Source: an uncultured cyanobacterium
GTDB taxonomy: Bacteria > Cyanobacteriota > Cyanobacteriia > Thermosynechococcales > Thermosynechococcaceae
Reading direction: 5' to 3'
Assembly: GCA_937951315.1 (NCBI GenBank)
Contig: CALFCG010000128.1
Span: forward strand, 1 to 45,988
Length of the DNA stretch: 45,988 nt
The notes under the pieces were generated by a model that worked only from the letters and a program-made list of their open reading frames with translations, made no database searches and was not told where the DNA came from. Positions 8,781-34,507 of this stretch are shown one piece after another (the stretch's first letter is position 1; every line of letters begins with the position of its first letter). Made by a program: the position numbers and the translations under genes.

Positions 8781-9962
8781 ATGACTGCCCAGCCACTCTC
8801 TTTAAATACGTCTAAGCCTATTCTCTCTTGGGCTAATCATGATCTGGGTGCTCGTGAAACCCAAATGGCCAAAAATGTGGCTTCACTCCCTTTTGTCTAC
8901 AAGCATGTGGCATTAATGCCCGATGTCCACTTGGGTAAGGGAGCATTGGTGGGATCTGTGATTGCGACCCAGGATGCCATTATTCCTGCAGCCGTGGGCG
9001 TAGATATTGGTTGTGGCATGTGTGCGATCCAAACGCCCTACGTGGGTCATCAATTAGAGGGAAAGCTGAAGAAAATTCGCAAAGAGATCGAAGCTGTTAT
9101 CCCTGTGGGTTTTGAGGCCAGCAAGGATATTGATAAGACAGTATACAACTGGCAAGGGTGGCATTCATTTAAGGATCTGCATCAAGGTGTGCAGCACCTT
9201 GAGAGAAAGGCCCTCAAGCAAATGGGATCGCTTGGAGGTGGGAATCATTTTATTGAGGTGTGTATTGATACTGAAGACCACGTTTGGTTAATGCTGCATT
9301 CGGGGTCACGCAATATCGGCAACATGCTGGCCCAGAATCATATCCGCTCCGCCAAAGATCTGGCTAAGTTAGCGGCTCAGAAACTACCCGATCCAGATTT
9401 GTCTGCTTTTGTTGCGGGTACGGACGCTTTTAAGCAGTACTGGCACGATTTACAGTGGGCGCAGGATTATGCCCGATTTAATCGAGAGGTGATGATGAGC
9501 CGGTTTAAGAAAATCCTCGAATTGAATCTTGGAGGTGGAAAGCCTTTTAAGCCAACACTCTCAGTCAATTGCCATCATAATTATGCTGAGCGAGAATCAC
9601 ATTTTGGTGAAGAGGTGTATGTGACCCGTAAGGGGGCAGTCCGGGCCCGCACAACAGATTACGGCATTATTCCGGGATCAATGGGAGCGCAGTCTTTCAT
9701 CGTTAAGGGCAAAGGAAATCACGATAGCTATTGTTCTTTTAGTCACGGGGCAGGACGATTGATGTCCCGTACAAAGGCAAAACATGCTTTTACCCTGGAT
9801 GACTTGATTGAACAAACCAAAGGCATAGAGTGTCGTAAAGATGCAGGAATCTTAGATGAGATTCCTGCTGCCTATAAGCCAATTCAAGAGGTGATGGCCA
9901 ATCAAGAGGATTTGGTTGAGGTGGTTGCAACATTGCGACAGGTGGTATGTGTTAAAGGATAG
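8781..9962 (+). CDS. rtcB: RtcB-family RNA-splicing ligase
   Basis: RtcB joins 2',3'-cyclic phosphate or 3'-phosphate RNA ends to 5'-OH ends using GTP and Mn2+. The 393 residues carry the family's landmarks: VDIGCGM with Asp75/Cys78, LGGGNHFIEV (Asn154, His155, Glu158), LHSGSRNIG (His172), NCHHNYAE (His264/His265), VTRKGAVRA, PGSMGAQSFIVKGKGN and FSHGAGRLMSRTKA with the guanylylated His321. Length matches the short bacterial form (about 400 residues). It is the second gene of an apparent two-gene unit with the HNH-like protein. No RtcA cyclase or RtcR activator is nearby, in contrast to the enterobacterial rtcBA locus. Confidence 0.95.
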   Translation: MTAQPLSLNTSKPILSWANHDLGARETQMAKNVASLPFVYKHVALMPDVHLGKGALVGSVIATQDAIIPAAVGVDIGCGMCAIQTPYVGHQLEGKLKKIRKEIEAVIPVGFEASKDIDKTVYNWQGWHSFKDLHQGVQHLERKALKQMGSLGGGNHFIEVCIDTEDHVWLMLHSGSRNIGNMLAQNHIRSAKDLAKLAAQKLPDPDLSAFVAGTDAFKQYWHDLQWAQDYARFNREVMMSRFKKILELNLGGGKPFKPTLSVNCHHNYAERESHFGEEVYVTRKGAVRARTTDYGIIPGSMGAQSFIVKGKGNHDSYCSFSHGAGRLMSRTKAKHAFTLDDLIEQTKGIECRKDAGILDEIPAAYKPIQEVMANQEDLVEVVATLRQVVCVKG

Positions 9963-13592: not shown

Positions 13593-14918
13593 TTAGATAT
13601 TGATGTAATGTTCCATTTCCCAGTCCGTAACCTGAGTGCAAAAGGCGTTCCACTCTTTCTCTTTGAATTCAAAGAAGGTTTTTGCACCCAACTCTCCTAG
13701 CATTTTCATCAGCAACTTGTCGTGTTTGAGTTCATTGAGTGCCTCATATAGACTGGTGGGCAGCATTGGTAAGCCTGGGAACTCAGAGCCACGCGTGAAC
13801 AGATTTTCGTCAATACGTTCTCCAGGAAAAACTCGATTCTTGATGCCGTCTACGCCTGCGGTCAGCATTCCTGCTAGGGCAAGATACAGATTTGCAGAGC
13901 CATCAACGAGACGGCACTCAAAGCGACCTGCTTCAGGAATGCGCAGCATATGGGTGCGATTGTTGCCACCGTAGGAAATATAGCGTGGTGACCAGGTACT
14001 GCCCGAGGCTGTGATGCTAGCTCCCAAGCGACGGTAAGAATTGACTGTGGGTGCAAACAGGGCGGTTAGGCCTTTGGCATGCTTGAGAACCCCCCCCAAA
14101 AAGTGATAGCCGACAGGGGATAAACCACCCTCATCCGCACCCTCGGAAAAGCTATTGGTCTCGCCCTGCCAGAGACTATTGTGAACGTGACCGCCGCTGC
14201 CGGTAATATGGCTGAAGGGTTTCGGCATAAAGGTGGCGGTCAAACCACGTCTCTCAGCTAGGGTTTTGACCATATACTTGAAAAAGACGTGGCGATCGCA
14301 AGTTGTCTTTGCATCACTAAAGGTCCAGTTCAACTCAAACTGACCGTTGGCATCTTCGTGATCACATTGGTAAGGCTCCCAGCCCAGTAATTCCATATAC
14401 TCAACGAGTGTGGAAATCAGATCGAACTGACGCATCAGATTGATCTGGTCGTAGCAGGGCTTCTCAGCGGTATCGCGCTCATCGGCCACTGCGAAACCCG
14501 CTTCGGTTTTCTTGAGTAAAAAGAATTCTGCTTCAACCCCTGCTTTGTAGGTATAGCCCAACTCAGCACACTGGTCTAACACTCGATTGAGAACCATGCG
14601 GGGTGCGGCCAGAAATGGCTTGCCTTCAAAATAAACATCACTTGCCACCCAGCCTACGGTGGGTTCCCAGGGAAGCTGGATCAAAGAGGTGGGGTCAGGG
14701 ATGGCGGCAATTTCTGGGGCATCTGGCCCTAATCCTAGATTGGAAGCAAAGGAGCAAAAGAACGCTCCATCCTGCTCCACTGATGCAATTTTTGCAGCGG
14801 GCACCAGCTTCGCTCTGGTTCCACCCAGGAGGTCAGTATAGGACACTAAAAAGAACTTAATGCCAAGAGATTTGGCTTGTTCTGCCAGAGGCTTAGGCTG
14901 CGTGAGGGTTCCTACCAT
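13593..14918 (-). CDS. GlnT/type III-like glutamine synthetase (gamma-glutamyl amide ligase candidate), copy 1
   Basis: Glutamine-synthetase fold of 441 residues, the size of the GlnT-type group. Visible active-site strands are GVEAEFFLL (metal Glu pair), CDHEDANGQFELNW, TGSGGHVHNSL (ATP-site His), APTVNSYRRLG, GGNNRTHMLRIP and FECRLVDGSANLYLALAGML. This group includes enzymes that ligate glutamate to ammonia and others that use methylamine or other amines (gamma-glutamylmethylamide synthetase and relatives), so it need not be an ammonia-assimilating GS. ATG 14918 is chosen because GGAG lies nine bases upstream; the TTG at 14951 has no such signal. It is transcribed divergently from the TIM-barrel gene. 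Confidence 0.9.
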   Translation of the reverse strand: MVGTLTQPKPLAEQAKSLGIKFFLVSYTDLLGGTRAKLVPAAKIASVEQDGAFFCSFASNLGLGPDAPEIAAIPDPTSLIQLPWEPTVGWVASDVYFEGKPFLAAPRMVLNRVLDQCAELGYTYKAGVEAEFFLLKKTEAGFAVADERDTAEKPCYDQINLMRQFDLISTLVEYMELLGWEPYQCDHEDANGQFELNWTFSDAKTTCDRHVFFKYMVKTLAERRGLTATFMPKPFSHITGSGGHVHNSLWQGETNSFSEGADEGGLSPVGYHFLGGVLKHAKGLTALFAPTVNSYRRLGASITASGSTWSPRYISYGGNNRTHMLRIPEAGRFECRLVDGSANLYLALAGMLTAGVDGIKNRVFPGERIDENLFTRGSEFPGLPMLPTSLYEALNELKHDKLLMKMLGELGAKTFFEFKEKEWNAFCTQVTDWEMEHYINI

Positions 14919-15067
14919 TCCAGAGAGCTCCGTGCATTTAGTTCTAGTCAATCAGGCCCGCATGGATGTGTTTGTAGCTGCGGTTACTATTGTCAAGGCA
15001 ACATCCCGAGATGATGGGCCTCAAAGTCCTAAATACTTCGACCAGAGAGAATACTGTGGATTTATTG

Positions 15068-15910
15068 ATGTTGCGATCGCAATGGACAGGTCCCACGGCT
15101 CTAGATGAACTGATGTCCCAAACCATTAATGACGGTTTCGATGGCATTGAAGGCCCCATCCCCCAAAGTGAGTTTGATCAACGTCGCTACAAAAAACGCC
15201 TCGATGATCATGGACTTGTTTTTATTGCGGAATCAACAACAGGCGGTGACATGAGTAGTCCCTCAGATTGGTGGGTTCCTCGCCCAGATCAAAGCATTGC
15301 GGATCATCTATCGGATTTGAAATGGACCGTTGACCACGCTGCAGAGATGGGAGCACTTTTCGTTTCGACAATGTGTGGGTACGATGCCTGGTCCTGGTCA
15401 CAAAATGTTGATTTTTTTGGTCAAGCACTGGAGCTAGAACAACAGTCTGGCATCACGATTAGCTTTGAGACCCATCGAGGGCGATCGCTTTTTAATCCCT
15501 GGATCACAAGGGATCTCTTGCATGAATTTCCGCAGATGAAGCTTACCTGCGATTTCAGCCATTGGTGTGTCGTCTGTGAAAGACTCATTGACTCAGAATG
15601 GTCAATTCTGCAACTTTGTGCCGAACGAGCCATGCATGTTCAGTGTCGCGTGGGCTATGCCCAGCATGCTCAAGTATCAGATCCGCGAGCACCAGAATGT
15701 TTAGAAGCACTAACGGCTCACGAACGATGGTGGAATCTCATTTGGAAGACGCAAGCCAAACGAGGAATGAAACAGGTCACGATGATGCCGGAGTTCCTAT
15801 GGGATGGCTATATGCAAACTTTGCCCTACAGCGATATGCCCGTCGCTGATGTTTGGGAGATTACCTGCTGGATGGCAGAGCGGCAGCGTAGTCAATTTGC
15901 AAAAATCTGA
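15068..15910 (+). CDS. xylose-isomerase-like TIM-barrel (sugar phosphate isomerase/epimerase family) protein
   Basis: About 280 residues with the AP-endonuclease-2/xylose-isomerase barrel pattern: an N-terminal DGFDGIEGP strand with a metal Glu candidate, then SIADHLSDLKWTVDHAAEMGALFVSTMCG, SGITISFETHRGRSLFNPW (a second Glu-x-His-R-G motif), MKLTCDFSHWCVV (Asp and His) and a C-terminal VTMMPEFLWDGYMQTLP. These Glu/Asp/His positions fit a divalent-metal isomerase or epimerase. ATG 15068 (LRSQWTG...) is preferred over 14990 because the domain begins there. It heads the plus-strand cluster and is separated from the ABC genes by a small hairpin. Confidence 0.78.
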   Translation: MLRSQWTGPTALDELMSQTINDGFDGIEGPIPQSEFDQRRYKKRLDDHGLVFIAESTTGGDMSSPSDWWVPRPDQSIADHLSDLKWTVDHAAEMGALFVSTMCGYDAWSWSQNVDFFGQALELEQQSGITISFETHRGRSLFNPWITRDLLHEFPQMKLTCDFSHWCVVCERLIDSEWSILQLCAERAMHVQCRVGYAQHAQVSDPRAPECLEALTAHERWWNLIWKTQAKRGMKQVTMMPEFLWDGYMQTLPYSDMPVADVWEITCWMAERQRSQFAKI

Positions 15911-16036: not shown

Positions 16037-16966
16037 ATGTCATTTCTCTTGCTTTTTGATTGCGGTCAAAAAGTCATTTTTCTTATAAATAAAGTAGGAG
16101 GTTTTCCTCTGGCCAGTCCATCAACCACTGCCTTTAACAGACCTCATTTTCACGAGACTGACCCCACCCGCCCAGCCACTGAAAAACTCAGTGTTGATAA
16201 CGTCTGCAAAATCTTCCCACTGAAAGGTCGAAAACATCTCTGTGCTGTTGACTCTGTCTCCTTTGACGTTCAACAGAGCGAAATTTGCATTCTGCTTGGC
16301 CCCTCCGGATGCGGCAAGTCTACAATTTTGCGGATGGTTGCCGGCCTCGATTCCATCTAGGCAGGCAGAATTTTGTTGTCTGGTCACCCGGTTATGGGGC
16401 CGGGACGCGATCGCGGCATGGTCTTTCAAAGCTATACCTCCTTTGCTTGGCTGACGGTAAAAGAGAATGTCGAGTATGGCCTTAAGGTGAATGGCTACAA
16501 CCGGGCTGAACGCCGAGATATTGCTCATCATTTTATTGACCGGGTCCGGCTGACAAAATTCAAGGATGCCTATCCCGATCAGCTCTCCGGCGGCATGCGA
16601 CAGCGCGTTGCGATAGCACGTGCCCTCGCCAACGGTCCTGAAATCCTACTGATGGATGAACCCTTCGGGGCACTGGACCCCGAAACCCGATGGCAAATGC
16701 AGGAGCTGCTGCTAGATATCGTCTGCGAAGAGAATATGACCGTGCTGATGGTCACCCACGATGTTGATGAAGCGCTTTTCCTAGCCGACAACATAGTTTT
16801 CCTATCCAGTCATCCAGGCACCGTTCGAGAGATCATCCCCACACCGCGCCAAGGGAAGGCCAAGCCAGTCACCAAGGAAGACATGTATGAAATCCCTGAA
16901 TACATTGACCTGCAAAAGAGAATTATGCATTTGATGCGGGAAGTTGCCCATGATCCAGCTTGCTGA
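16037..16966 (+). pseudogene. TauB/SsuB-type ABC importer ATPase with an in-frame amber stop
   Basis: Read through one TAG (16358-16360), this frame encodes a complete nucleotide-binding subunit: Walker A GPSGCGKS and VAGLD before the stop, then AGRILLSGHPVMGPGRDRGMVFQSYTSFAWLTVKENV (Q-loop), LSGGMRQRVAIARAL (signature), LLMDEPFGALD (Walker B/D-loop) and VTHDVDEA (H-switch) after it, all in the same phase. A CAG-to-TAG change explains it. Translated as two pieces, neither could hydrolyse ATP. The ATG at 16037 has no ribosome binding site; AGGAGG at 16096-16101 instead points to a CTG at 16109 in frame. The downstream permease overlaps its 3' end by 17 bases. A base-call error cannot be excluded. 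Confidence 0.85.
16096..16111 (+). promoter_or_regulatory. strong Shine-Dalgarno facing a CTG codon
   Basis: AGGAGG at 16096-16101 lies seven bases before CTG 16109-16111, which is in frame with the ABC ATPase and directly precedes A-S-P-S-T-T. This is ideal spacing for a start codon, but CTG is a very poor start. The start may have mutated from ATG, TTG or GTG. Confidence 0.5.
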
Positions 16967-17768
16967 TCCAGCCGTTCTGTCAGGCTTCAATATTAAGAAG
17001 CCAGTTTCTAAAAGGATTCAGGTCCTTCTAGGGATATCGAGCTGGGGCTTGTTTCTCGTTGGCTGGCATCTGTTAGCCACCAGTGGCCAGATCAATGACA
17101 AATTATTCCCGCCGCCTCTGCAGGTGTTTACGGCCCTATGGGTTTTGTTCGCCGAGCAAAACTTCCTGGCCGATGTGCTGCAAAGTGTCTTTCGCATTTT
17201 GGCCAGTTATGGAATTGCGATCGCAATTGCTCTGCCCCTCGGACTCTTAATGGGAACCTTCCCTATCGTCGAAGCCTTTCTCAATCCTCTGGTTTCCCCC
17301 TTTCGTTACTTACCCGCTCCCTCCTTCATTCCGCTCCTACTCATGTGGCTCGGCACCGGAGATGAACAGAAAATAGCATTGCTGGTCCTGGGTGTCGTCT
17401 GGTTCCTGATCACACTGATTATGGACAACACCCAAGCCGTCCGTATGGAGCTGATAGAGACCGCTGCAACACTGGGTGCAAGCAAACGCACGATTCTTAA
17501 GACTGTCATCTTTCAAGCCGCACTGCCCAATATTGTCGATACATTCCGTCAGATGCTGGCGGTGAGCTGGACCTATTTAGTCATTGCCGAAATTGTGGCA
17601 GCAACCAATGGCATTGGTGCAGTCATGATGCGAGCGAAGCGGTTTGTCCATGTCGATGAAATCATGGCCGGCATTCTGGTGATTGGCATTTTGGGTCTGT
17701 TGTTTGATTCAGCCTTGCGATTGCTGCACTGGCAACTTTTTCCGTACTTACATCGAGCAAAAACCTAA
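16950..17768 (+). CDS. TauC/SsuC-type ABC importer permease
   Basis: A 272-residue integral membrane protein of the binding-protein-dependent permease family used for nitrate, taurine, sulfonates, cyanate and pyrimidine precursors. It begins with a cytosolic stretch and about six hydrophobic helices (WGLFLVGWHLLAT, ILASYGIAIAIALPLGLLMG, FIPLLLMWLG, IALLVLGVVWFLITLIM). The EAA loop ETAATLGASKRTILKTVIF and the following ALPNIVDTFRQMLAVSWTYLVIAEIVAATNGIG are diagnostic. ATG 16950 overlaps the end of the ATPase frame, a usual operon arrangement, and the binding protein follows after 16 bases. The gene itself appears intact. Confidence 0.92.
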   Translation: MIQLADPAVLSGFNIKKPVSKRIQVLLGISSWGLFLVGWHLLATSGQINDKLFPPPLQVFTALWVLFAEQNFLADVLQSVFRILASYGIAIAIALPLGLLMGTFPIVEAFLNPLVSPFRYLPAPSFIPLLLMWLGTGDEQKIALLVLGVVWFLITLIMDNTQAVRMELIETAATLGASKRTILKTVIFQAALPNIVDTFRQMLAVSWTYLVIAEIVAATNGIGAVMMRAKRFVHVDEIMAGILVIGILGLLFDSALRLLHWQLFPYLHRAKT

Positions 17769-17784: not shown

Positions 17785-18864
17785 ATGAAAAGAAGAAGAC
17801 TGTTCGGATTCGTTTGCCTGATGGCCGCTACCTTTACGGTCGTTGCCTGTAGCTCCCAACCCTCCGGTGAGTCGGGACCGTCAGGAGGCGCTGAGATCAA
17901 AGAAACCGTTAAGGTCTCACTATTCTCCTGGCCGGGGTATGGCTTCTGGTTCATTGCGAAAGAGAAGAACTTGGTCCCTGAGCTTGATCTCGAAATCAGC
18001 ATCATTGAAGATCCCTACGAAAGCTTTAACCTCATGAGTTCGGGCCAGCTCGATGCGACCTCCAGTACCGTAGAGTATGGTCCCATTGCCGTGGACAAAG
18101 ACGTTCCCGTCAAATTGGTGAGTTACACCAATCCCTCCTACGGAACCGATCGAATCATCCTGAGCCCTCAAATCAAAGATCCTTCAGAACTGAAGGGAAA
18201 AAAAGTAGCGGTTCTTGAAGGGGGCCTAACTCAGATCTATATGGGCATTTGGCTAGAAGAGAATGGTGTCAACTTCAAGGATGTTGAGTTCACCAACGTG
18301 ATTATGGATGATGCCGTTGCTGCGATGCTCTCTGGGGAAGTTGCAGCCGGTGAATTCTGGGAGCCCTTTGGTACTCAAGTCATGGATGGGTTAGAAGGGG
18401 CTCGGGCCGTGACCAGCTCCAGCGAGGATTTCTGGATTAAAACAGCTTTGCTGGGAGATGGCATGTACATGAGCGAGTCGCTGTTGGCCAATCGCCCAGA
18501 GACGGCCAAGTTGCTGATGAAAGCCTATTTTGAAGCCGTTTCATTCTGGAAAGAGAACCCAGAAGAGGGCAATAAAATCATTGCTGAGGGCTTAAAGTTC
18601 GACGTCAAAGATGTGGAAAATGTAATAGGTGCCGATGGCAAGATTTATAAGGGTGGTATTGCCGTCTTTGATTTCGATGAAGCCTCAAAGTTCATGGGGT
18701 TGGCCGAAGGAGAACCTCCGCTGGGCATGAAGAATGGCCAAATTAGAGACCATTGGGATCTCACCAGTGAATGGTGGATGAAGTTTGGCTTGGTATCAAA
18801 AAAAGCCGAGCCTGAAGCGGGTATCGCTTTTGAACCCATGAAAAGTCTCCTTGCAGAGGAGTAA
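17785..18864 (+). CDS. ABC importer substrate-binding lipoprotein (NMT1/TauA/SsuA-like)
   Basis: The N-terminus KRRRLFGFVCLMAATFTVVACSS is a lipoprotein signal peptide with lipobox VVAC. The mature domain follows the periplasmic-binding-protein type II pattern of the NMT1/SsuA group: KVSLFSWPGYGFWFIAKEKNLV, a helix with SSGQLDATSSTVEYGPIA, then DPSELKGKKVAVLEGGLTQIYMGIWLEENG and VAAMLSGEVAAGEFWEPF. The ligand cannot be read from sequence, but this group binds small organic N- or S-compounds. It lies between the permease and the Rieske oxygenase with short gaps, so the substrate is likely processed by the next gene products. Confidence 0.92.
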   Translation: MKRRRLFGFVCLMAATFTVVACSSQPSGESGPSGGAEIKETVKVSLFSWPGYGFWFIAKEKNLVPELDLEISIIEDPYESFNLMSSGQLDATSSTVEYGPIAVDKDVPVKLVSYTNPSYGTDRIILSPQIKDPSELKGKKVAVLEGGLTQIYMGIWLEENGVNFKDVEFTNVIMDDAVAAMLSGEVAAGEFWEPFGTQVMDGLEGARAVTSSSEDFWIKTALLGDGMYMSESLLANRPETAKLLMKAYFEAVSFWKENPEEGNKIIAEGLKFDVKDVENVIGADGKIYKGGIAVFDFDEASKFMGLAEGEPPLGMKNGQIRDHWDLTSEWWMKFGLVSKKAEPEAGIAFEPMKSLLAEE

Positions 18865-18875
18865 AGCCGTAACAG

Positions 18876-20087
18876 ATGAATCGAACTGTCTCGAATCCAG
18901 AAAAATTAACCGCGATCCAAGAGGGCATATTAGAAGCTGCTGATCGGCCTTTAGCAGAGGCGATCGCGCTGCCTGCAGAAGCCTACACCGATGCCGATTT
19001 TTACGATTGGGAACTGGAGCATATCTTCAAAAAACAATGGCTGTGTCTCGGTCATATCTCACAGATCCCGAATATTGGCGACTACATCAATCTAGATCTG
19101 CTGGGGGAGCGCCTCGTCATTTCCCGAGATCAGGAGAACCAGATCAACGTCCTTTCCCGCGTGTGTATGCACCGTGGCATGGATCTTATGCCAGATGCCT
19201 TTGGTCACAGTCAGCACGGAAATCGGCGCAGCTTTATTTGTCCCTATCATCACTGGACCTATGCCTTAGATGGGACCCTGATGGGTGCCCCAGAGATGGA
19301 CAATAATGTGGGATTTGAGCCACAGAAATGTCGCCTCCCTGCCTTCCGCTCTGAAGTCTGGGAGGGGTTTATTCTTCTGACGTTTGACCCTGAACTAGAA
19401 TCTGTCACAACCCTCTATTCAGGCTTATTACCGTTCGTGGGGCATCGTCAAATGGCAAGGATGGAGATGGTCGCCAATGTGCAGTGGGATTGTCAATTTA
19501 ACTGGAAGATCTTGGTTGAGAACTTTATGGAACCCTATCACCACATGGGGGCTCACCATAAAACCTTTGAACCCCTAATGCCTGCCGCTGGTACTTGGAC
19601 AGAATCTGAAACGGCTCATTCAATTACCTGTCATTTACCCTTGGCAAAACGGATCGTAGAAGATACCGCTGCATATCAAAAACTGATTGAGTTCTATCTC
19701 AGTCCAGAACTCAAGCCAGAAGATCGACAGGAATATGCGGTTTATTTGGGTGAGCCCACCTTCTTACTGTTTATTGGCCCTGATCGGGTCTATTGGTATC
19801 GACTGCAGCCGGATGGCCCTGACCACATGACATTGAACACTACGCTGCTTGTCTTGCCTGAAAGTAAACAGGCAGAAAATTATGAGCAATGTTTGAAAGA
19901 TGCCACCGAGAGCTTACAACGTTTCCATCTAGAAGATATGGAAGTGTGTACTGCAGTGCAGGCGGGCTTACACACCTCTCGGTATCAATCAGGTCCCCTC
20001 AGTCATTTAGAAATGCCGATCTGGTTATTTCAGCGCTACTTGGCGAAGCGAATCCGAGCAGCATGTCCTAGCTCATTTTCCCCCTAG
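18876..20087 (+). CDS. Rieske non-haem iron oxygenase, alpha subunit (CntA/GbcA-like group candidate)
   Basis: The 403-residue protein has a Rieske [2Fe-2S] domain, CMHRG (Cys97, His99) and CPYHHW (Cys122, His125), and a catalytic domain with NWKILVENFMEPYHHMGAHH, giving the ExxHxxxxH mononuclear-iron motif (Glu219, His222, His227). The position bridging the two metal centres is Asp in most ring-hydroxylating dioxygenases but Glu here, as in carnitine monooxygenase CntA. No beta subunit, ferredoxin or reductase gene is adjacent, fitting a homotrimeric alpha-only enzyme served by a reductase elsewhere. It starts 11 bases after the binding-protein gene and ends 10 bases before the second GS-like gene, so it is firmly within the cluster. 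Confidence 0.9.
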   Translation: MNRTVSNPEKLTAIQEGILEAADRPLAEAIALPAEAYTDADFYDWELEHIFKKQWLCLGHISQIPNIGDYINLDLLGERLVISRDQENQINVLSRVCMHRGMDLMPDAFGHSQHGNRRSFICPYHHWTYALDGTLMGAPEMDNNVGFEPQKCRLPAFRSEVWEGFILLTFDPELESVTTLYSGLLPFVGHRQMARMEMVANVQWDCQFNWKILVENFMEPYHHMGAHHKTFEPLMPAAGTWTESETAHSITCHLPLAKRIVEDTAAYQKLIEFYLSPELKPEDRQEYAVYLGEPTFLLFIGPDRVYWYRLQPDGPDHMTLNTTLLVLPESKQAENYEQCLKDATESLQRFHLEDMEVCTAVQAGLHTSRYQSGPLSHLEMPIWLFQRYLAKRIRAACPSSFSP

Positions 20088-20097
20088 CAATTTGCAT

Positions 20098-21462
20098 ATG
20101 TCTTACCCAAATATTCAGCCCCTATCTCCTGAGCTTGTGGCACTTCAAAAGACGCTTCAAGAGAAAGGAGTCAAGTATGCGATGGCCAGCTTTGTGGATA
20201 TTCACGGCATGTGTAAAGGCAAAGTGGTCCCCATGAGTCACTTTGACCGCATGATGCAAGGATCTGAGCTGTTTACGGGTGCAGCACTTGATGGTGTTCC
20301 GCAAGAAATCAACGATGATGAAGTGGGGACAATGCCTGACCCAGATAGCGTTACGGTTCTGCCTTGGAACCACGAGATTGCCTGGTTCGCTAGCGATTTA
20401 CATCTGGTGGGTCAACCCTTTGAAGCTTGCTGTCGAACCATCTTCAAACGGGTTCTGCAGCAGGCAGCAGACATGGGCTATCGCTTTAATTTAGGAATAG
20501 AAACGGAGTTCTTCATTTTTAAGGAATCAGAAAACGGTTTTAGCCCCGTCAGCGATCGCGATACTCTGGCCAAGGCGGCCTATGCCCTCCCAACCGTTTT
20601 AGATAACTACAAAATCATTGATCGCATCGTCAGTGCCATGAACGATTTGGGCTGGGATGTTTATTCCTTTGATCACGAAGATGCTCAAGGGCAGTTTGAA
20701 ACCGATTTCACTTACTGCGATGGCCTCAAGATGGCTGATCGGCTGACTTTCTTTCGCTTTATGGTCAAAGAACTGGCGCGGGAGGAAGGCTACTTTGCCA
20801 GCTTTATGCCCAAACCGTTTGCCAATCAAACCGGCAGCGGTGCCCATTACAATATGTCCCTGGCAGATCCTGACACCGGAAAAAATCTATTTGAGAACCC
20901 GCAGGACACCTGTGGTCTCTCAAAGTTGGGTTACCAGTTTATTGCTGGAATCTTGAAGCATGCTAGAGCCATTGTTTCCGTGACCTGTCCAACGGTGAAC
21001 AGCTACAAGCGACTGGTCCGTCAGGGCAGTATGTCTGGTTTTACCTGGGCGCCGGTCTATGTATGTTACGGCAACAATAACCGGACGAATATGCTTCGTA
21101 TTCCGATGGGGGGCGGACGGGTGGAATGTCGCGCTGCAGATATTTCGACCAATCTTTATTTAGGGGCCGCAATGATTTTGGCGGCTGGATTAGAGGGAAT
21201 TCGAGAGGGGTTAGATCCAGGAGAACCCCATACCGAAAATATGTACGAATACACGCTTGAGGAGCTGAAGGCGATGGGGATTGAGACTTTGCCAAAAACA
21301 CTGGGAGATGCGATCGCAAGTTTCGCAGCCGATCCACTCAGCAAAGAAGTGATGGGACCATTGATGTATAAAACCTACATTGACCTCAAAACCCAAGAAT
21401 GGGAAGAGTACCATTGCCACATCTCCGATTGGGAAATTCAGCGGTACCTGAAATTCTTCTAA
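20098..21462 (+). CDS. GlnT/type III-like glutamine synthetase (gamma-glutamyl amide ligase candidate), copy 2
   Basis: A second full-length glutamine-synthetase-fold protein (454 residues), paralogous to the one at 13593-14918. Matching strands: GIETEFFIFK, FDHEDAQGQFETDF, GSGAHYNMSL, CPTVNSYKRLVRQGSMSGFTWAPVYVCYGNNNRTNMLRIP and VECRAADISTNLYLGAAMILAAGLEGI. The His of the ATP loop is followed by Tyr-Asn instead of the Val-His of copy 1, so the pockets differ. It probably ligates glutamate to ammonia or an amine released by the Rieske enzyme; this is inferred from context. ATG 20098 is preferred to the TTG two codons earlier. It is the last gene of the plus-strand cluster and converges with the HEAT-repeat gene. 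Confidence 0.9.
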   Translation: MSYPNIQPLSPELVALQKTLQEKGVKYAMASFVDIHGMCKGKVVPMSHFDRMMQGSELFTGAALDGVPQEINDDEVGTMPDPDSVTVLPWNHEIAWFASDLHLVGQPFEACCRTIFKRVLQQAADMGYRFNLGIETEFFIFKESENGFSPVSDRDTLAKAAYALPTVLDNYKIIDRIVSAMNDLGWDVYSFDHEDAQGQFETDFTYCDGLKMADRLTFFRFMVKELAREEGYFASFMPKPFANQTGSGAHYNMSLADPDTGKNLFENPQDTCGLSKLGYQFIAGILKHARAIVSVTCPTVNSYKRLVRQGSMSGFTWAPVYVCYGNNNRTNMLRIPMGGGRVECRAADISTNLYLGAAMILAAGLEGIREGLDPGEPHTENMYEYTLEELKAMGIETLPKTLGDAIASFAADPLSKEVMGPLMYKTYIDLKTQEWEEYHCHISDWEIQRYLKFF

Positions 21463-22292: not shown

Positions 22293-23003
22293 TTATCGCT
22301 GTGTATTAAGGACATAACAAAAGCGATCGCCCCTAGAAATGGTCTCTCCATGCAAAATGGGTCGATGATGACTGGAGTAAGCCGTATAGCGATAGACCAT
22401 CAATGGATGCCCCAGTGGTACTTCTAGATAGTTACTCATCTCATAATCGGCTTGAGTGCATTCAATCAGGGCACTGATATGCTCAATGGGAATATTGTTC
22501 TTCTCCAAAATAGGAAAAGTCATGTTGTTTGGCAGCTGAGCTGCAAATCTTTGCCCCAGCTCAGACAACAGATAACTAATATCTACTGCACCTGCGGCCC
22601 CATCCATCTGTAAAAGTTTTTTCTGGACATAGATATTGGCCTGCCCTGTGAGCTGCAGAATCGCGCAGGTCTGCTTCGATGGTATTTCCTCACGAAACAT
22701 CAGATTTTCAAAGCTTAAGTGAACGCCTTTTTGCGCAAGATCCTGTTCCAAAAAGACGAGCGGGCTCGAAAGAGAATATGCCACCTTTTGCTTGGACGTT
22801 ACGAATGCACCCTTGCCACGTTGAGTATGAGCCAAACCTTGATGAACAAGGTTTGCGATCGCACGTCTAGCGGTAATTCGACTCACATCAAAAGTCGCCA
22901 TCAACTGATGCTCGCTGGGGAGCTTTTCGCCCGGTGAATAATCACCCGCCTCAATCTGGCTGCGCAACGTCTCGGAGATAGTGGTGTGAAGAGGAATTGA
23001 CAT
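22293..23003 (-). CDS. GntR/HutC-family transcriptional regulator with UTRA ligand domain
   Basis: Residues ~5-70 form the GntR winged helix (LRSQIEAGDYSPGEKLPSEHQLMATFDVSRITARRAIANLVHQGLAHTQRGKGAFV). The remaining ~160 residues are a UTRA (chorismate-lyase-fold) effector domain, ending with the usual EVPLGHPLMVYRYTAYSSHHRPILHGETISRGDRFCYVL. HutC-type regulators normally repress neighbouring transport or catabolic genes and release DNA on binding a small ligand. Two palindromes lie between this gene and the divergent desaturase, so autoregulation and control of the desaturase are likely. I did not find the palindrome in front of the ABC/Rieske cluster. Confidence 0.9.
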   Translation of the reverse strand: MSIPLHTTISETLRSQIEAGDYSPGEKLPSEHQLMATFDVSRITARRAIANLVHQGLAHTQRGKGAFVTSKQKVAYSLSSPLVFLEQDLAQKGVHLSFENLMFREEIPSKQTCAILQLTGQANIYVQKKLLQMDGAAGAVDISYLLSELGQRFAAQLPNNMTFPILEKNNIPIEHISALIECTQADYEMSNYLEVPLGHPLMVYRYTAYSSHHRPILHGETISRGDRFCYVLNTQR

Positions 23004-23048
23004 CAAAAAAAGAAGGAATGAGACCTGTAGGACTGACTTACCGTCAAT

Positions 23049-23097: not shown

Positions 23098-23139
23098 AAG
23101 TCATAGCGATTGTTTTTCTCTAGTCCTAACCCATACGAC

Positions 23140-24081
23140 ATGATTTCAGACAGTAGTCAGACAACTGACCCTGTGGGTGTCCCCTCGGCAAATCCAAACC
23201 AAATTTTAGCGCCCCATCAGTTGACTGTGTTGAATCAGCGTTCTGATTTTTCAGGGAGCCTTAGGTTGATAGCACACCTGACCATTATGGGTTTGAGTGG
23301 ATATCTATGGGCCACAACAGCATCGATCGGGATAGCACTGCCAGCCTTATTTCTCTATGGAATCAGTTTGGCGTTTATGTTCTGCCCCACACATGAATGC
23401 GTGCATCGCACTGCCTTTAAAAGCCAGTGGATGAATGATGCCGTGGCTTGGCTTACCGGATTACTATCTTTCTATAACAGCACCTTCTACCGCCGTTATC
23501 ACAAATGGCACCACCGCTATACCAAAATTGATGGGAAAGACCCTGAATTAAGCGACATAACACCCGAAAATTGGGGTCAGTACCTCTGGCATTTGAGCGG
23601 CATCCCATGGTGGCGGAGCAAAATTTCTGGACATTTGAATATTGCACTCAAACGGTTAGAGGATTATTACTATTTGCCCGAAAGTTCCTATGCAGAAGTG
23701 GTGCGTTCGACTCGTCTACAGCTTGGAACATATGTTGCGATCTCGCTTCTCTCTCTATTGCTCGGACATCCCTGGTTTCTCTTTACCTATTGGGTCATCC
23801 CGTTGGCTGTGGGGCAGCCTTTCCTGCGTTTCGTGCTCTTAGCAGAACATACCGGCTGTAGTAGTGACAACAATTCTCTCACCAACACCCGTTCAACATT
23901 GACCCTCTGGCCCCTGCAATTTTTGATGTGGAATATGCCGTTCCATGCCGAACACCATTTATATCCCTCTATCCCCTTTCACGCCTTACCTAAAGCCCAT
24001 CCGCAGCTTAAAGATAATTTTGCTCATATTGATGCGGGATATTTAACGGTCAATCAGAAGATTGTGGGAGCGTTTCAATGA
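23140..24081 (+). CDS. membrane fatty acid desaturase
   Basis: The 313-residue membrane protein has the three histidine boxes of the acyl-lipid/acyl-CoA desaturase superfamily: HECVH, HKWHH and HAEHH, with hydrophobic segments before and between them (LIAHLTIMGLSGYLWATT, IALPALFLYGISLAFMF, YVAISLLSLLLG, FLFTYWVIPLAVG). These bind a di-iron centre at the cytosolic membrane face. The position of the double bond introduced cannot be told, and related enzymes hydroxylate other lipids. ATG 23140 is preferred; the TTG at 23110 lies only 13 bases from the operator. It is divergent from the GntR-family gene and shares its regulatory region. Confidence 0.88.
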   Translation: MISDSSQTTDPVGVPSANPNQILAPHQLTVLNQRSDFSGSLRLIAHLTIMGLSGYLWATTASIGIALPALFLYGISLAFMFCPTHECVHRTAFKSQWMNDAVAWLTGLLSFYNSTFYRRYHKWHHRYTKIDGKDPELSDITPENWGQYLWHLSGIPWWRSKISGHLNIALKRLEDYYYLPESSYAEVVRSTRLQLGTYVAISLLSLLLGHPWFLFTYWVIPLAVGQPFLRFVLLAEHTGCSSDNNSLTNTRSTLTLWPLQFLMWNMPFHAEHHLYPSIPFHALPKAHPQLKDNFAHIDAGYLTVNQKIVGAFQ

Positions 24082-28563: not shown

Positions 28564-28698
28564 AGCACTCAATCGTAGGGAAGAAGAATATACAGGGTAT
28601 ACAAATACCTCGGTGCTTTAAAAACGGATGTTATGAAACAAAGACTTTTGCTCATTTTGTAAGGGTATGGGGAACTATACGGCAATGTATCGAAAGTG

Positions 28699-30144
28699 AT
28701 GTTTCCCTCTGTGTCCGCAATTGATTCAGCTTTAACACAAGAGTTCTTAGATCTGATTTGGGGTCAAACGGGTTTAAAGGTCCGAACACAAGACTGGGAG
28801 ACCCTAGCGACAAATATCATGGGTCGGGTAAAGTCCCTTCAATTCCCGAACCCTCAGGCTTATTATCAGCATCTGGTGACTGAATCGAGCTTGGGGGCAG
28901 AACAGCAGCAAGAATGGAAGCATTTTCTCAATCTGATCACAATCGGAGAAAGCTACTTTTTTCGAGATCAGGATCAGTTTCAGGTTTTAAGAGAGCATAT
29001 TCTGCCAGACCTGATTGCACGAAGAAGAGCGGAGTATAGCAAAGGGTCTATTCCCAACCTGACTCTGCGACTCTGGAGTGCGGGATGCTCCACTGGCGAG
29101 GAACCCTATTCATTAGCCATGCTGCTGCAGGAACTGATTCCGGATATAGCTGAGTGGGATATTTCGATTTTCGGCACGGATCTCAATCCAGCATCCTTAG
29201 AGAAAGCCCGCCAGGGCATTTATCGGGACTGGTCTTTTCGCCATACAGAACCAACCCTGAAGTCCCGCTTCTTTTGCCCTGTGGCATCAGGATGGAAGAT
29301 TCATAACCGCATTCAGCAGTCCGTTATTTTCCGCGAAGGAAATCTGGTCAAGGATCTGTTTCCCAATGCTGCGTTCAACACCTTGGATTTAATCGTCTGT
29401 CGGAATGTCTTTATCTATTTCGATGCGCCGACCATTGGCAATATTCTAGAGAAGTTTAATGCAGCCCTCAGTCCTGACGGCTATCTGATCACAGGACATG
29501 CAGAACTATATGCCCAAAACCTGAATCAGTTTGCGGTGCAGAGCTTCTCAGGCTCAATGGCCTACCAACGCCAGGCAAAAAGTAGGGGCCATAGACACCC
29601 ACACAAGAAAGGGATGCGGCCCCCCGTTCAGCCATCGACACGCCCTACCCAAAAATCGGTTACACCTCAGACATCGAGTCCCCGAAAACTTTCACCGAGG
29701 CAAAATCCCCTTCAAAAGCCATTCCCAAAGGCACAACCCAAGACTCAACTGACAGCCCAGTTCTTACTGGCTCAATCCCATTGGCAACGAAAAGAATTAG
29801 AACAGGCAATGCATCATTGTGATGCAGCCTTGCAGATGGATGGAGAAGCCCTTGAGCCGCTCTATCTTAAAGCTCAGATCGCGCATGCCAATTGCGATCG
29901 CAAACAGGCTAAAACCCTCCTTAAAAAGCTCCTCTATCTCCACCCCTTCTTTATTCCAGCTTATCTAGAGCTAGGGTCCATTTATGCTCAGAATGCCCAA
30001 AACCTAAGAGCGAATAAGATGTATCGTACGGCCCAGGATTTGCTCGCAGAACTTCCCCCAGAAACCTGGATCAACTATCAAGGCAAAATCACCGCCCGGG
30101 ACTTATCTCGACAACTCAACCACAAAATACCCCAGACTGCCTAA
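28699..30144 (+). CDS. cheR: CheR-type MCP methyltransferase with C-terminal TPR region
   Basis: CheR methylates receptor glutamates using S-adenosylmethionine. Residues ~15-290 form the CheR domain: helical N-part, ITIGESYFFRDQDQF, the SAM motif LWSAGCSTGEEPYSLAMLL, IFGTDLNPASLEKARQGIY, and LDLIVCRNVFIYFD followed by GYLITGHAELY. After a Pro/Ser/Lys-rich linker (~290-350) come about three TPR-like units (AQFLLAQSHWQRKELEQAMHHCDAALQMD, AQIAHANCDRKQAKTLLKKLLYLHP, YLELGSIYAQNAQNLRANKMYRTAQDLL). CheR-TPR fusions are common in non-enteric chemosensory systems. It opens the signalling locus, 530 bases before the next gene. ATG 28699 directly follows a GTG codon. Confidence 0.92.
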   Translation: MFPSVSAIDSALTQEFLDLIWGQTGLKVRTQDWETLATNIMGRVKSLQFPNPQAYYQHLVTESSLGAEQQQEWKHFLNLITIGESYFFRDQDQFQVLREHILPDLIARRRAEYSKGSIPNLTLRLWSAGCSTGEEPYSLAMLLQELIPDIAEWDISIFGTDLNPASLEKARQGIYRDWSFRHTEPTLKSRFFCPVASGWKIHNRIQQSVIFREGNLVKDLFPNAAFNTLDLIVCRNVFIYFDAPTIGNILEKFNAALSPDGYLITGHAELYAQNLNQFAVQSFSGSMAYQRQAKSRGHRHPHKKGMRPPVQPSTRPTQKSVTPQTSSPRKLSPRQNPLQKPFPKAQPKTQLTAQFLLAQSHWQRKELEQAMHHCDAALQMDGEALEPLYLKAQIAHANCDRKQAKTLLKKLLYLHPFFIPAYLELGSIYAQNAQNLRANKMYRTAQDLLAELPPETWINYQGKITARDLSRQLNHKIPQTA

Positions 30145-30677
30145 AATCAGGGGCATTACCATCAAGCCAAGAACCGAAGGTGCCCGGTTACCTCAGCACA
30201 GGGCAAGCAAACAATCAAATGGCCGCGGATAACCTGAAAGAAGAGTATTGAGCGATATTCTCAATTAATGCAGATCGTTTTGGGCAAAATCAACGTAATT
30301 GCAAGAGATTTGCAGCCTCATGCGCCTGAAAAAGGAAATTCTAACAAAGAAGGCATTAGAATAAGATACAGTTTATGCAATTTGTGTCTAAGGTCAGGGC
30401 ACAATACGTATGTGCTACCAGTACGAGGTTCTGGCCAATATAGCAGAACAATAACTAGGGCATACATGGAACTGCATTAACGGTGGGAGGTTAAGTAGAA
30501 AAGGGTGTTTGTAGTGCTATAGAGTATTTCTCCAGGCGAAAATCGACTGAGATAGCTCTTAATCAACTGAGCAAGAGCTGAATTTAAATATTAAATGTGT
30601 TCGAAGATTGAGTGATCAATGCAAAAGGCATCTTTTCCTCAGTCTATCTATTGATGGCTCAGTAGGAGATAGTTTAG
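30145..30677. other. intergenic region before the PatA-like gene
   Basis: The 533 bases between cheR and the PatA-like gene contain no supportable frame; 30268-30480 is open but has no start signal or motif. The end includes a ribosome binding site (AGGAGA, 30664-30669) for the GTG at 30678. Its length suggests a separate promoter for the downstream signalling genes. Confidence 0.45.
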
Positions 30678-31799
30678 GTGCAGCAGTTTAAGTCCAGGCA
30701 ACTACCGTATTTTATAGAAAGTTTCAAAGGACAAAAATTTAGTGGGGTTGTATCTGTTCAAGTAAACTCTCCGGAATGGGATCAGCCCCGAAAGCGCATC
30801 ATTGTTTTCCATAAGGGATGGATGACCTATGCCGGCAAAAAGATCATCTCAGCCCAAGAACTGGCCAAGCAACTGGGTCGCAAACTCAAGCTCAAAGTCA
30901 TTGATTCTGCCATTCAGTTAGCCAACAAAAAGGTTAAAGAAAATCCTTCAATTCATGATTATTTGGAGCTGCTTGTTCGGCTTGAGCTTTTTCAATGGAA
31001 AGATGTTGAAGCCTGTGTTCGGACCAATATACTCAGCACCCTAGAGCAATTAATCCCCTACGACGGCGTCATCAGCCAGGAGCCGGAGACCGTTCTCGAT
31101 CTCTATTACAGTGATTCAAACCCTGGGTTTAACTGGGCTGATTTACGCCCGATTTACGAGCAACGACAACAAAAGTGGGCAGAACTCGCACCTGCAATCC
31201 CTTCTATTGAAGCGATTCCCCGAGTACTCAGCATAGACAAAGCAGATGCGACGGTTGCTAGGCACCTAAAGAAATGGGTCAATAGTCAACGTTCTTTGAT
31301 TAACATCGCCATCGCCCTAGAAGAAGATCCTTTGGCTTTAGCCAAGCTCTACTATCGGTGGATTCAAGACGAGGTCTTAACGTGCCAAGAGTCGGGTACA
31401 ACCCAAGTTGTGAATATTTTAGATGTTCAACCGATTGTTCTCAGTGTAGATGACAGTAGTGTTGTTCAGACTCTGATCAAACGGGCCTTGACCGATCGCT
31501 ACCAAGTCTTACTGGCGGGGAATGCGGTGGATGCACTCAATATGCTCAATAACAACCCAGTTTCGATTATCTTGCTTGACGTGACCATGCCTGACATTGA
31601 TGGTTTAGAGCTTTGTCGAACCATTCGCAGCATTGGTAAATTTCGAGATTTGCCAGTCGTCATGTTAACCGCTAAAGATGGCATGTTCAATAAGCTCAAA
31701 GGGCAAATGGCAGGTGCCACACATTACCTCACCAAGCCCGTGACCCGCGAAAAGCTTTTAGAGGTCCTGGAAAAATATGTTCCTATTGTGCAGATCTGA
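30678..31799 (+). CDS. PatA/PixG-like response regulator (PATAN-type N-terminus + receiver)
   Basis: The N-terminal ~245 residues (LPYFIESFKGQKFSGVVSVQV...KRIIVFHKGWMTYAGKKIISAQELAKQLGRKL) match the DUF4388/PATAN-containing half of cyanobacterial PatA-family regulators. The C-terminal receiver (about 255-370) has all phosphorylation residues: VDD, the acceptor Asp in ILLDVTMPDIDG, Thr in MLTAKD and Lys in YLTKPV. In Synechocystis, PixG and PilG of this type are first genes of phototaxis/motility loci, as here. A GTG start follows AGGAGA at suitable distance. It is likely a CheA output or early phospho-relay protein. Confidence 0.9.
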   Translation: MQQFKSRQLPYFIESFKGQKFSGVVSVQVNSPEWDQPRKRIIVFHKGWMTYAGKKIISAQELAKQLGRKLKLKVIDSAIQLANKKVKENPSIHDYLELLVRLELFQWKDVEACVRTNILSTLEQLIPYDGVISQEPETVLDLYYSDSNPGFNWADLRPIYEQRQQKWAELAPAIPSIEAIPRVLSIDKADATVARHLKKWVNSQRSLINIAIALEEDPLALAKLYYRWIQDEVLTCQESGTTQVVNILDVQPIVLSVDDSSVVQTLIKRALTDRYQVLLAGNAVDALNMLNNNPVSIILLDVTMPDIDGLELCRTIRSIGKFRDLPVVMLTAKDGMFNKLKGQMAGATHYLTKPVTREKLLEVLEKYVPIVQI

Positions 31800-31877
31800 T
31801 TCTGGATAGCGGCTTGATTTTGATCTAGAAAATTCTGTTTTTCATCTATGAGCTTTTCATAAATTCTCTAGTTCCCT

Positions 31878-32975
31878 ATGAATAAAAATAATCAATCCTA
31901 TTTGATGTTTCGCCACGCTGATTCTCTCTACGGAATCGAAGCGCCGCGTGTTCGCGAAATCTTTCAACTTCCTGAACTGACGCTGGTGGCAGATGCCCCC
32001 AAAGATATTATTGGCAGTTTAAATTGGCGCGGAAAGCTACTACCGATCATGCACCTTGATTTGCGTCTGGGGCAACCTCTACAGTCCTGTCGACTCAGTG
32101 ACAGCATCATTGTCCTTGATTGGCAGGGTATTCAAGTCGGTCTAGTGGTGAATCAAGTCCTTGATGTCCAAGTCATTGCAGCCGTTGATCAAGAAGACTC
32201 ACCGGACTATGGAAGAGAGCAGCAAATTAACACCGCCTTCGTTGCTGGCTTGGCCAAGGTAGACAGCGATGTCGTGGTTTTACTCAATCCAGAGACCTTG
32301 ATTCGTCAAGCCGATGATGTAGCCACCCTAATCTGGGAATCTGAACTCGCCCCAGAGCATGACAGCTCAGAAGAAGACAGGTCACCAGAAGCCGAGTGGC
32401 AAGCCCTTGTCACTGCGGAGCAAATCGGCTCCGACTTCTACGAGCGCTATTGTGCGAATACCTCAGCTGAGGAACGCATCATCTTTCGACAACGTGCAGA
32501 GGAACTTCGTCCCCCTCTCGAAGGGTCTGAGAACACCACCGACTTGTTATCCTTGGCCGTCATCGGTTTAGGGGAAGACTACTTTGCACTGGAGCTAGGC
32601 ATGGTGCGTGAGTTTATTAATGTACCTCCAGTGACCACAATTCCCTGCTGTCCCCCGCACATTATGGGCAATATCAACCTGCGGGGAGAAGTCATGACCC
32701 TGGTTGATATCCGCACAGTGATTGACCAACCCGCCACTCCCACCACCGCAAAAGCCGTCGTGGTGGAGGTGAATGATATCGTCGCCACCATTCCCGTGGA
32801 TGAGGTTTTTGATGTGATGTACCTTGCCCAAACAGAGATGAGTGAAGTTCCCCTCGCCTCTGGTCAGCAGGGCTATTTTCAGGGTTCCACAACCTATCAA
32901 GATAAACACCTTCGCGTTCTAGACCTCCCCACTCTGTTCTCACGGGGAGAGTTGATTGTCAATCAAGGGGGGTAA
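31878..32975 (+). CDS. coupling protein with two CheW domains
   Basis: The 365 residues contain two CheW-like domains. The first (about 5-150) shows YLMFRHADSLYGIEAPRVREIFQLPELTLVADAPKDIIGSLNWRGKLLPIMHLDLRLG; the second (about 215-360) shows LSLAVIGLGEDYFALELGMVREFINVPPVTTIPCCPPHIMGNINLRGEVMTLVDIRTVI. Both keep the G-x-x-N/L-x-R-G-x-x-x-P/T-x-x-D/H-L pattern. They are joined by an acidic linker (SELAPEHDSSEEDRSPEAEW). CheW couples receptors to CheA; a double CheW could bridge two receptor trimers or two kinases. It lies between the PatA-like gene and the MCP gene. Confidence 0.93.
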   Translation: MNKNNQSYLMFRHADSLYGIEAPRVREIFQLPELTLVADAPKDIIGSLNWRGKLLPIMHLDLRLGQPLQSCRLSDSIIVLDWQGIQVGLVVNQVLDVQVIAAVDQEDSPDYGREQQINTAFVAGLAKVDSDVVVLLNPETLIRQADDVATLIWESELAPEHDSSEEDRSPEAEWQALVTAEQIGSDFYERYCANTSAEERIIFRQRAEELRPPLEGSENTTDLLSLAVIGLGEDYFALELGMVREFINVPPVTTIPCCPPHIMGNINLRGEVMTLVDIRTVIDQPATPTTAKAVVVEVNDIVATIPVDEVFDVMYLAQTEMSEVPLASGQQGYFQGSTTYQDKHLRVLDLPTLFSRGELIVNQGG

Positions 32976-33020
32976 GCCTTCAATGATCTATGTCGAAAAA
33001 TCTTTCAGATAAAGCTTTGC

Positions 33021-33040: not shown

Positions 33041-33123
33041 GTCCTCTCCATCCCGTTTCGCCCTCCTGGACGATCTCAACCTTAATCAACACTTCGCCCC
33101 ATTCTTAAACAAGGAGCCATTCG

Positions 33124-34500: not shown

Positions 34501-34507
34501 AAAGGAA

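Follow-up and report, generated by a model that had tools for sequence, protein, structure and literature searches.

A rare clade of Rieske oxygenases with a bridging glutamate, linked to guanidine-pathway genes in cyanobacterial and Verrucomicrobia-type genomes

This study concerns a Rieske non-heme iron oxygenase encoded in a 45,988-nucleotide stretch of DNA (the window; contig CALFCG010000128.1 of assembly GCA_937951315.1) from an uncultured cyanobacterium of the Thermosynechococcaceae, where the gene for its alpha subunit of 403 amino acids occupies positions 18876-20087 of the + strand. The protein belongs to a small clade with cyanobacterial and Verrucomicrobia-type members. Because the recurrent neighbours of these genes are genes of the guanidine pathway (the UAAP1 and UAAP2 pair, a carboxylase and a TIM-barrel gene that is linked to guanidinase), the clade fits the breakdown of guanidino compounds, and we give about an even chance to the reading that its members are monooxygenases which hydroxylate the carbon beside a guanidino nitrogen and free guanidine. 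The reaction and its direction are what we infer from the sequence features, the clade and the gene linkage described below.

To define the content of the clusters, the partner proteins were compared directly with each locus. In all five Verrucomicrobia-type genomes, a relative of GS1 (the glutamine-synthetase-like ligase whose gene follows the Rieske gene in the window), a creatininase-family gene, the UAAP pair and a carboxylase are found together, and in four of them the clade Rieske gene and the TIM gene lie inside this guanidine cluster. Locus L019 (genome G416) carries on one strand creatininase family, GS1, substrate-binding protein, permease, ATPase, deacetylase, Rieske, SUMF1, TIM, carboxylase, allophanate hydrolase, UAAP1-like and UAAP2-like genes. 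The order in L046 (G631) is substrate-binding protein, permease, ATPase, GS1, creatininase family, GFA (glutathione-dependent formaldehyde-activating), SUMF1, TIM, Rieske, NikR-like, UAAP1, UAAP2, carboxylase and allophanate hydrolase, and that in L044 (G656) is substrate-binding protein, permease, ATPase, creatininase family, GS1, Rieske, SUMF1, 2-hydroxyacid dehydrogenase, TIM, NikR-like, UAAP1, UAAP2 and carboxylase (cut). One strand of L042 (G415) bears TIM, SUMF1, GFA, Rieske, creatininase family, GS1 and ATP-binding cassette (ABC) genes, and the other NikR-like, UAAP1, UAAP2 and a carboxylase that is cut by the end of the stretch. The genes of G547 were read on two contigs: L128 holds substrate-binding protein, permease, ATPase, creatininase family, GS1, NikR-like, UAAP1, UAAP2 and carboxylase with no Rieske gene, and L045 holds TIM, SUMF1, Rieske and an importer of the kind found in the window (type A). 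A second clade Rieske gene of G415 (L018), paralogous to the L042 copy, is accompanied by a type A importer only.

The UAAP proteins are a DUF1989 pair, which is present in all five genomes and lies within about 7 kb of the clade Rieske gene in four; the DUF1989 proteins of G547 and G656, the two that were scored, exceed the UAAP1 and UAAP2 cut-offs. Proteins of this type, annotated for urea metabolism, are reportedly carboxyguanidine deiminases. Allophanate hydrolase is found in L019 and L046 and is absent after the carboxylase in L128, and L042 and L044 end inside the carboxylase gene. The creatininase-family proteins of L019 and L128, the two that were scored, reach 119 and 126 bits, below the creatininase equivalog cut-off of 235 bits. 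A GFA-family gene adjoins the Rieske gene in two of the five sets (L042 7119-7517, L046 7531-8037), and the 2-hydroxyacid dehydrogenase of L044 distantly resembles glyoxylate reductases.

The second line of evidence comes from the TIM gene in cyanobacteria. A profile (A1) made from the window's TIM protein and four relatives, among which is one from the Synechococcus-type genome G235, matched in 13 of 373 cyanobacterial genomes: that of the window and 12 more that belong to a single family. Guanidinase is encoded in all 12 of these others vs 56 of the 373 overall (hypergeometric probability 4.6e-11, not corrected for kinship). The physical linkage of the two genes is a stronger point than this value: they are separated by 4.8 to 12.3 kb in 10 of the 12 genomes, by 164 kb in G350, and are on different contigs in G368. 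Moreover, a Rieske gene adjoins the TIM gene in four of the five TIM loci read, and also in G207. Thus L093 comprises guanidinase, HypA, HypB, substrate-binding protein, permease, ATPase, Rieske and TIM genes, and in L095 (G207) a GS1 relative, 56% identical to the L019 copy, lies between guanidinase and the ABC genes. The Rieske proteins of these Synechococcus-type clusters (L093 5175-7033, L095 8585-16912) share only 21-22% identity with the window's Rieske protein and are of the Asp type, and two different Rieske lineages therefore share the same gene set. PMC10119275 notes a Rieske protein of marine Synechococcus/Cyanobium, CK_00002251, that is encoded downstream of the guanidinase cluster, and from position we read L093 and L095 as holding it. 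It resembles the window protein in being a Rieske protein with the same TIM partner and with NMT1-type ABC genes in a guanidinase cluster, and differs from it in sequence (the 21-22% identity), in Asp for Glu and in its distant place in the tree described below.

The gene of the window translates completely, with no internal stop codon, and the product scores above the cut-offs of PF00355 (59.8 bits, cut-off 20.3) and PF00848 (96.8 bits, cut-off 24.9). The Rieske [2Fe-2S] ligands C97-x-H99 and C122-x-x-H125 (19164-19250), the two iron-binding histidines H222 and H227 and the third iron ligand D354 (19935-19937) are all kept in each of 37 aligned Rieske proteins; with the [2Fe-2S] motif, the 2-His-1-carboxylate site and the fold all present, the protein is a member of the Rieske non-heme iron oxygenases (alpha subunit). 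The histidines lie in the motif E219-x-x-H222-x4-H227 (19530-19556; N216-F-M-E219-P-Y-H222-H-M-G-A-H227 in full), in which E219 is the bridging residue. The original prediction for this gene, made from the DNA letters, had placed Glu219 in an ExxHxxxxH motif, with which both the translation and a phmmer alignment that matches E219 to the Glu of CntA agree. It also held that Asp is usual here in ring-hydroxylating dioxygenases, which is true of the five aromatic references on which this was checked. In the bridging column, 23 of the 37 proteins have Glu and 14 have Asp, the latter being these five aromatic oxygenases, seven rows from L020-L026 and two Synechococcus-type rows.

An AlphaFold2 model of the window protein, built on 13 window and locus sequences, has a mean pLDDT (predicted local distance difference test) of 82, while residues 220-238, which hold iron ligands, are poorly predicted. 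Structural matches whose Z differed by 1 or less were counted as ties. The best match was 3vca (Z 39.6), followed by 4quq, a stachydrine demethylase (38.7), and 3n0q (38.6); we take 3vca to be Stc2, the same enzyme as the stachydrine demethylase entries. Stachydrine demethylase (4quq, 4qup, 4qur), likewise with a Rieske cluster and a mononuclear iron, thus supplies top matches (Z 37.7 to 39.6) at only 23% identity in the structural alignments. CntA structures reached Z 36 to 37.4 and the best aromatic dioxygenase 33.7. As modelled, the window protein is built like the quaternary-amine Rieske monooxygenases.

A maximum-likelihood tree of the 37 Rieske proteins was then read for family placement. 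It leaves out L015 (internal stop), the second Rieske protein of L021, L027-L030 (partial matches) and L060 (missed by the open reading frame filter), and its L042 row was trimmed to an internal Met. The window protein falls in an 11-row clade of cyanobacterial and Verrucomicrobia-type members (support 100/99), whose sister (96/94) consists of nine rows, the Asp-type L020-L026 and the Glu-type L061 and L062. Outside the window clade stands a ten-row group, supported by only 83/79, that includes YeaW of E. coli as well as GbcA-like rows, and the aromatic references HcaE, PhtAa, AntA, BenA and NagG form a separate group (98/95). The best NCBIfam match of the window protein is GbcA (NF058607) with 124.3 bits against an equivalog cut-off of 670, a cut-off that L114, the row we labelled GbcA, also misses with 471. 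Judged from these sequences, the window protein belongs to a distinct small clade, apart from the CntA/GbcA and the aromatic groups.

Two placements were rejected on these grounds. Membership in the CntA/GbcA group, as suggested by the Glu motif, is not borne out by the tree or by the GbcA score, although GbcA shares the Glu motif and although YeaW and CntA share the bridging Glu and the fold; YeaW is 26% identical to the window protein, and its gene is adjoined by that of the reductase YeaX, whereas the window clade has no recognisable reductase. An aromatic ring-hydroxylating dioxygenase was rejected since the five references form their own group and the bridging residue is Glu and not Asp. 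The phylogeny that the original prediction had proposed as a check thus showed no clustering with these references, but placed the protein apart from CntA and GbcA as well. In the group neighbouring the window clade the bridging residue switches from Glu to Asp. Glu is not exclusive to the quaternary-amine group, and because it becomes Asp in such close neighbours, alone it does not predict a quaternary-amine substrate.

The original prediction had overlooked the gene context in the window, where an ABC ATPase, a permease, a binding protein, the Rieske protein and GS1 are encoded in a tightly spaced run on the + strand, with the TIM-barrel gene just upstream. GS1 (20092-21462, +) starts within 10 bases downstream of the Rieske gene and is a type III glutamine-synthetase-like, GMAS-like ligase (TIGR03105, 563.8 bits, cut-off 469.6). 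Its best solved relative is the glutamate--methylamine ligase 9qur (392 bits), with the best plain glutamine synthetase at 281 bits, and it has FTGAA in place of the FDGSS of glutamine synthetase, the Asp of which binds ammonium. Because of this nearest relative and the altered stretch, GS1 is probably an amine ligase and not an ammonia ligase. The TIM-barrel protein (14990-15910, +; PF01261, AP_endonuc_2) has a listed TTG start that is probably too far upstream, the profile match beginning at 15053; no solved relative was found for the TIM-barrel protein of L044, and the TIM-barrel model is poor (mean pLDDT 59). Divergent from the TIM gene lies GS2 (13593-14951, -), a second type III ligase (TIGR03105, 571.7 bits), 40% identical to GS1, whose membership in the gene set is unsure.

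The importer consists of an NMT1/SsuA-like substrate-binding protein of type A (17785-18864, +; PF09084), whose gene ends 11 bases upstream of the Rieske start, a permease (16944-17768, +; PF00528), 86% identical to the copy in L014 and 62% to that in L018, and an ATPase (16037-16966, +), whose gene the permease gene overlaps. The ATPase is split into two open reading frames (16037-16360 and 16373-16966, PF00005 on the second) by an in-frame TAG at 16358-16360, either a nonsense mutation or an assembly error, and the L014 relative is one uninterrupted frame. The window binding protein forms a clade with those of L014, L018 and L045. Identity between these type A proteins and the binding proteins from guanidinase clusters is 22-26%, and the two fall in separate clades, so that guanidine import by the type A system is not supported. 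Type B binding proteins, from the Verrucomicrobia-type clusters, are 27-35% identical to the guanidinase-cluster ones and group with them (82/81). As the window importer is not of the guanidine type, it fits uptake of a parent compound and not of guanidine itself.

The Rieske clade is rare and patchy. A pattern-based scan that covered 84,980 species genomes yielded 17 loci. Six of these are close (45-71% identity): two come from Verrucomicrobia-type records and four from cyanobacterial ones, of which two represent the same species. At 1e-60 the window genome alone, out of 386 cyanobacterial ones, yielded a clade protein; G006, of the same family as the window genome, was added when 39 relatives were searched, and in the phylum to which G416 belongs the clade is present in 4 of 288 genomes. 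In Paraprochloron terpiosi LD05 (L014), GS1, ATPase, permease and binding protein are all retained with the Rieske gene, just upstream of which there is a group II intron match (9854-9928). In the second P. terpiosi assembly the Rieske gene (L015 643-1839) has an internal stop codon. Other binding proteins adjoin the Rieske gene in L016 and L017, and in the latter (Tolypothrix) the ABC set is followed by a short remnant of a TIM gene (18642-18890).

Guanidinase is encoded in three of five cyanobacteria of the clade (G006, G412 and G413; the fragmentary assembly L015 was left out), with 84-85% mutual identity and 79-80% identity to a Synechococcus-type copy, and that of G413 is preceded by a guanidine-I riboswitch. 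No guanidine gene was recognisable beside the TIM gene of G413 (L129). Its glutamine-synthetase-like gene (L043) is distant from its Rieske gene, in a cluster with sarcosine-oxidase-like, amidotransferase and GXGXG proteins which, from sequence, reads as an N-methylglutamate/methylamine cluster.

Several observations weigh against a role of the clade in guanidine release. The hypergeometric value overstates the association of TIM and guanidinase, because one row of the profile came from a guanidinase cluster and because the 12 genomes are one family and not independent. The Synechococcus-type Rieske proteins are so different (21-22% identity, Asp) that their clusters support the pathway link and not the reaction of the window enzyme. 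In G006 (L031) the Rieske gene is without any partner gene within the 20 kb read, and G006, G412 and G414 gave no TIM match, G414 having a remnant. G414 is also without guanidinase, its two arginase-family proteins being 26-28% identical to that enzyme. The window genome, 83% complete, gave no guanidinase and no DUF1989 pair, and its one arginase-family protein is again 26-28% identical to guanidinase; it does have a truncated, sub-threshold guanidine-I match (C59:1-56, 34 bits, gathering threshold 63) that reads off the contig end, so any gene downstream would be missing from contig C59. NCBIfam gives the carboxylases the name urea carboxylase. According to PMC11410670, Asp at TIGR02712 positions 701 and 956 marks guanidine carboxylases; Asp in FTGD and GLGD was found in all four of our carboxylases but also in all four plasmid comparisons, with no Asn control and with the positions mapped by neighbourhood only, and this mark is therefore non-discriminating here. 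Finally, unless an assembly error accounts for the stop codon, the broken ATPase may mean that this strain is losing the importer and perhaps the route altogether.

The absence of a partner reductase or ferredoxin gene near the oxygenase, which the original prediction had pointed out, was confirmed more widely. Fourteen Rieske neighbourhoods (12 of the clade including the window and two of the Synechococcus type) were scanned for the Fer2-type motif C-x4-C-x2-C-x26-38-C. None was present in overlap-filtered open reading frames of at least 70 amino acids, and unfiltered stop-to-stop frames of at least 60 amino acids had none in 12 of the 14 neighbourhoods; L016 and L095 each gave a single match, in a frame judged by eye to be chance. 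A search with YeaX, the reductase of CntA, matched in 4 of 10 genomes and in none of them on the contig stretch that holds the Rieske gene. The window-clade oxygenase thus most likely uses a general ferredoxin of the cell without a dedicated reductase. Photosynthetic ferredoxin, suggested earlier as the donor, is possible in the cyanobacteria, but because the Verrucomicrobia-type members of the clade too are without an adjoining reductase, a general ferredoxin of the cell is the more parsimonious assumption.

In the proposed route, the ABC importer would bring a guanidino compound into the cell and a general ferredoxin would supply the oxygenase with electrons. Oxygen would be activated at the mononuclear iron held by H222, H227 and D354, with E219 coupling this iron to the Rieske cluster of the neighbouring subunit, and the carbon bonded to a guanidino nitrogen would be hydroxylated. 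The resulting hemiaminal would split, leaving a carbonyl compound and free guanidine (or methylguanidine). The model for such a step is CntA, which frees trimethylamine from carnitine by a C-N cleaving hydroxylation. Guanidine would then serve as a nitrogen source, via guanidinase in cyanobacteria and via guanidine carboxylase, UAAP1/2 (CgdAB) and allophanate hydrolase in the Verrucomicrobia-type genomes, and the TIM-barrel enzyme, the GMAS-like GS1 and the creatininase-family protein might handle other pieces of the same pathway. Because a creatininase-family gene is present in all five Verrucomicrobia-type sets, a GFA-family gene in two and a 2-hydroxyacid dehydrogenase in L044, our guess at the parent compound is creatinine, creatine or guanidinoacetate.

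The closest competitor in chemistry is an N-demethylase of a methylated guanidino compound, by which creatine or methylguanidine would give guanidinoacetate or guanidine plus formaldehyde; only the carbon attacked, here the methyl, would differ, and the enzyme would be a Rieske counterpart of the 2-oxoglutarate-dependent methylguanidine system. We regard it as unlikely, though it draws on the same pathway link and on the creatininase-family gene of all five sets. The GFA-family genes adjoining the Rieske gene in L042 and L046 also speak for it, but they are found in just these two sets and the family is broad, and the TIM-barrel partner would be left unexplained. Stepwise demethylation of methylguanidine by a dioxygenase and a lyase, in an operon with guanidine carboxylase genes, is described in PMC12508155 and adds to its credit. 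Rather improbable, in our view, is a quaternary-amine monooxygenase of the betaine, carnitine or choline type, with the guanidine genes as mere neighbours and both serving nitrogen supply. The plausibility of such a substrate in the original prediction survives in part: the closest solved folds are stachydrine demethylase and CntA, Glu219 is as in CntA and GbcA, and the relatives L061 and L062, 29% identical to the window protein, adjoin trimethylamine-methyltransferase-family genes. What does not agree with it is the tree position outside the CntA/GbcA group, the GbcA score of 124 of 670 bits, the Glu-to-Asp switch nearby, and a linkage with UAAP1/2, TIM and GS1 that is repeated in distant genomes.

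Oxidation of a gamma-glutamyl amide made by the GMAS-like GS1, as in aniline or isopropylamine pathways, would account for the position of GS1 directly after the Rieske gene, for its altered FDGSS stretch and methylamine ligase relative, and for the GS1 relatives in all five Verrucomicrobia-type guanidine sets and in the guanidinase cluster of G207. However, GS1 relatives are absent from L016, L017, L031 and L093, and no gamma-glutamyl hydrolase or aldehyde dehydrogenase was recognised on reading the open reading frames of the clusters, which leaves this reaction with a slim probability. Slimmer still is the chance that the enzyme, like HpxD, hydroxylates purines or other heterocycles, which the NMT1-type importer would supply. 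PMC7373994 links NMT1-type transporters with Rieske hydroxylases under the control of xanthine riboswitches, but Rfam gave no match close to the operon (nor any to the NMT1 motif, provided that the library contains it), and the partners are guanidine genes.

Rieske oxygenases that split C-N bonds are already known, and oxygen-dependent release of guanidine, as we propose for the clade, has precedents in the ethylene-forming enzyme and homoarginine-6-hydroxylase (PMC12186494); demethylation by hydroxylation beside nitrogen, as in methylguanidine dioxygenase (PMC12508155), is similar. These enzymes differ from the clade in superfamily and in electron source. No Rieske oxygenase is among the guanidine-producing enzymes listed in section 7 of PMC12186494. 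In the literature searched, mostly without subscription journals, we found no account of a Rieske enzyme that releases guanidine, of the window clade or of an association between this clade and UAAP clusters, and nothing that joins the Rieske clade or a GS-like ligase to guanidine breakdown except the Synechococcus remark in PMC10119275.

Of the 54 open reading frames of at least 100 amino acids in the window, 30 were run against Pfam. The sole Rfam match in the window is a c-di-GMP-I riboswitch (44343-44433, minus strand, 46 bits), and no tRNA gene was found in it. Three NtcA-like sites (GTAN8TAC) vs 3.1 expected are no excess over chance; one of them, at 14974-14987, is just ahead of the TIM gene. 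A GntR/UTRA-type regulator is encoded near the operon on the opposite strand (22293-23006) and has no relative in the loci compared. The fatty-acid-desaturase-family protein at 23110-24081 has the guanitoxin arginine hydroxylase GntB as its best NCBIfam match, with 51 of 380 bits, and is probably an ordinary desaturase. Further on is a run of chemotaxis-type genes (28696-38614: CheR, response regulator, CheW, methyl-accepting chemotaxis protein and CheB).

The natural source of the guanidine that widespread riboswitches sense is called a major gap in PMC12186494. The presence of this Rieske clade in guanidine gene sets, and of a second lineage in the Synechococcus-type ones, provides a testable candidate for an oxidative source of guanidine and for a new route of nitrogen scavenging. 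As a more speculative extension, to which we assign a low probability, this could be the first guanidine-making Rieske oxygenase, in an oxidative route for a compound of the creatinine, creatine or guanidinoacetate type: a creatininase-family protein would open the ring, and the Rieske enzyme, in cyanobacteria perhaps driven by photosynthetic ferredoxin, would split the guanidino C-N bond, with glyoxylate or formaldehyde as the second product beside guanidine (or methylguanidine). The guanidine would then serve as a nitrogen source. The bridging Glu should not serve alone as a predictor of quaternary-amine substrates.

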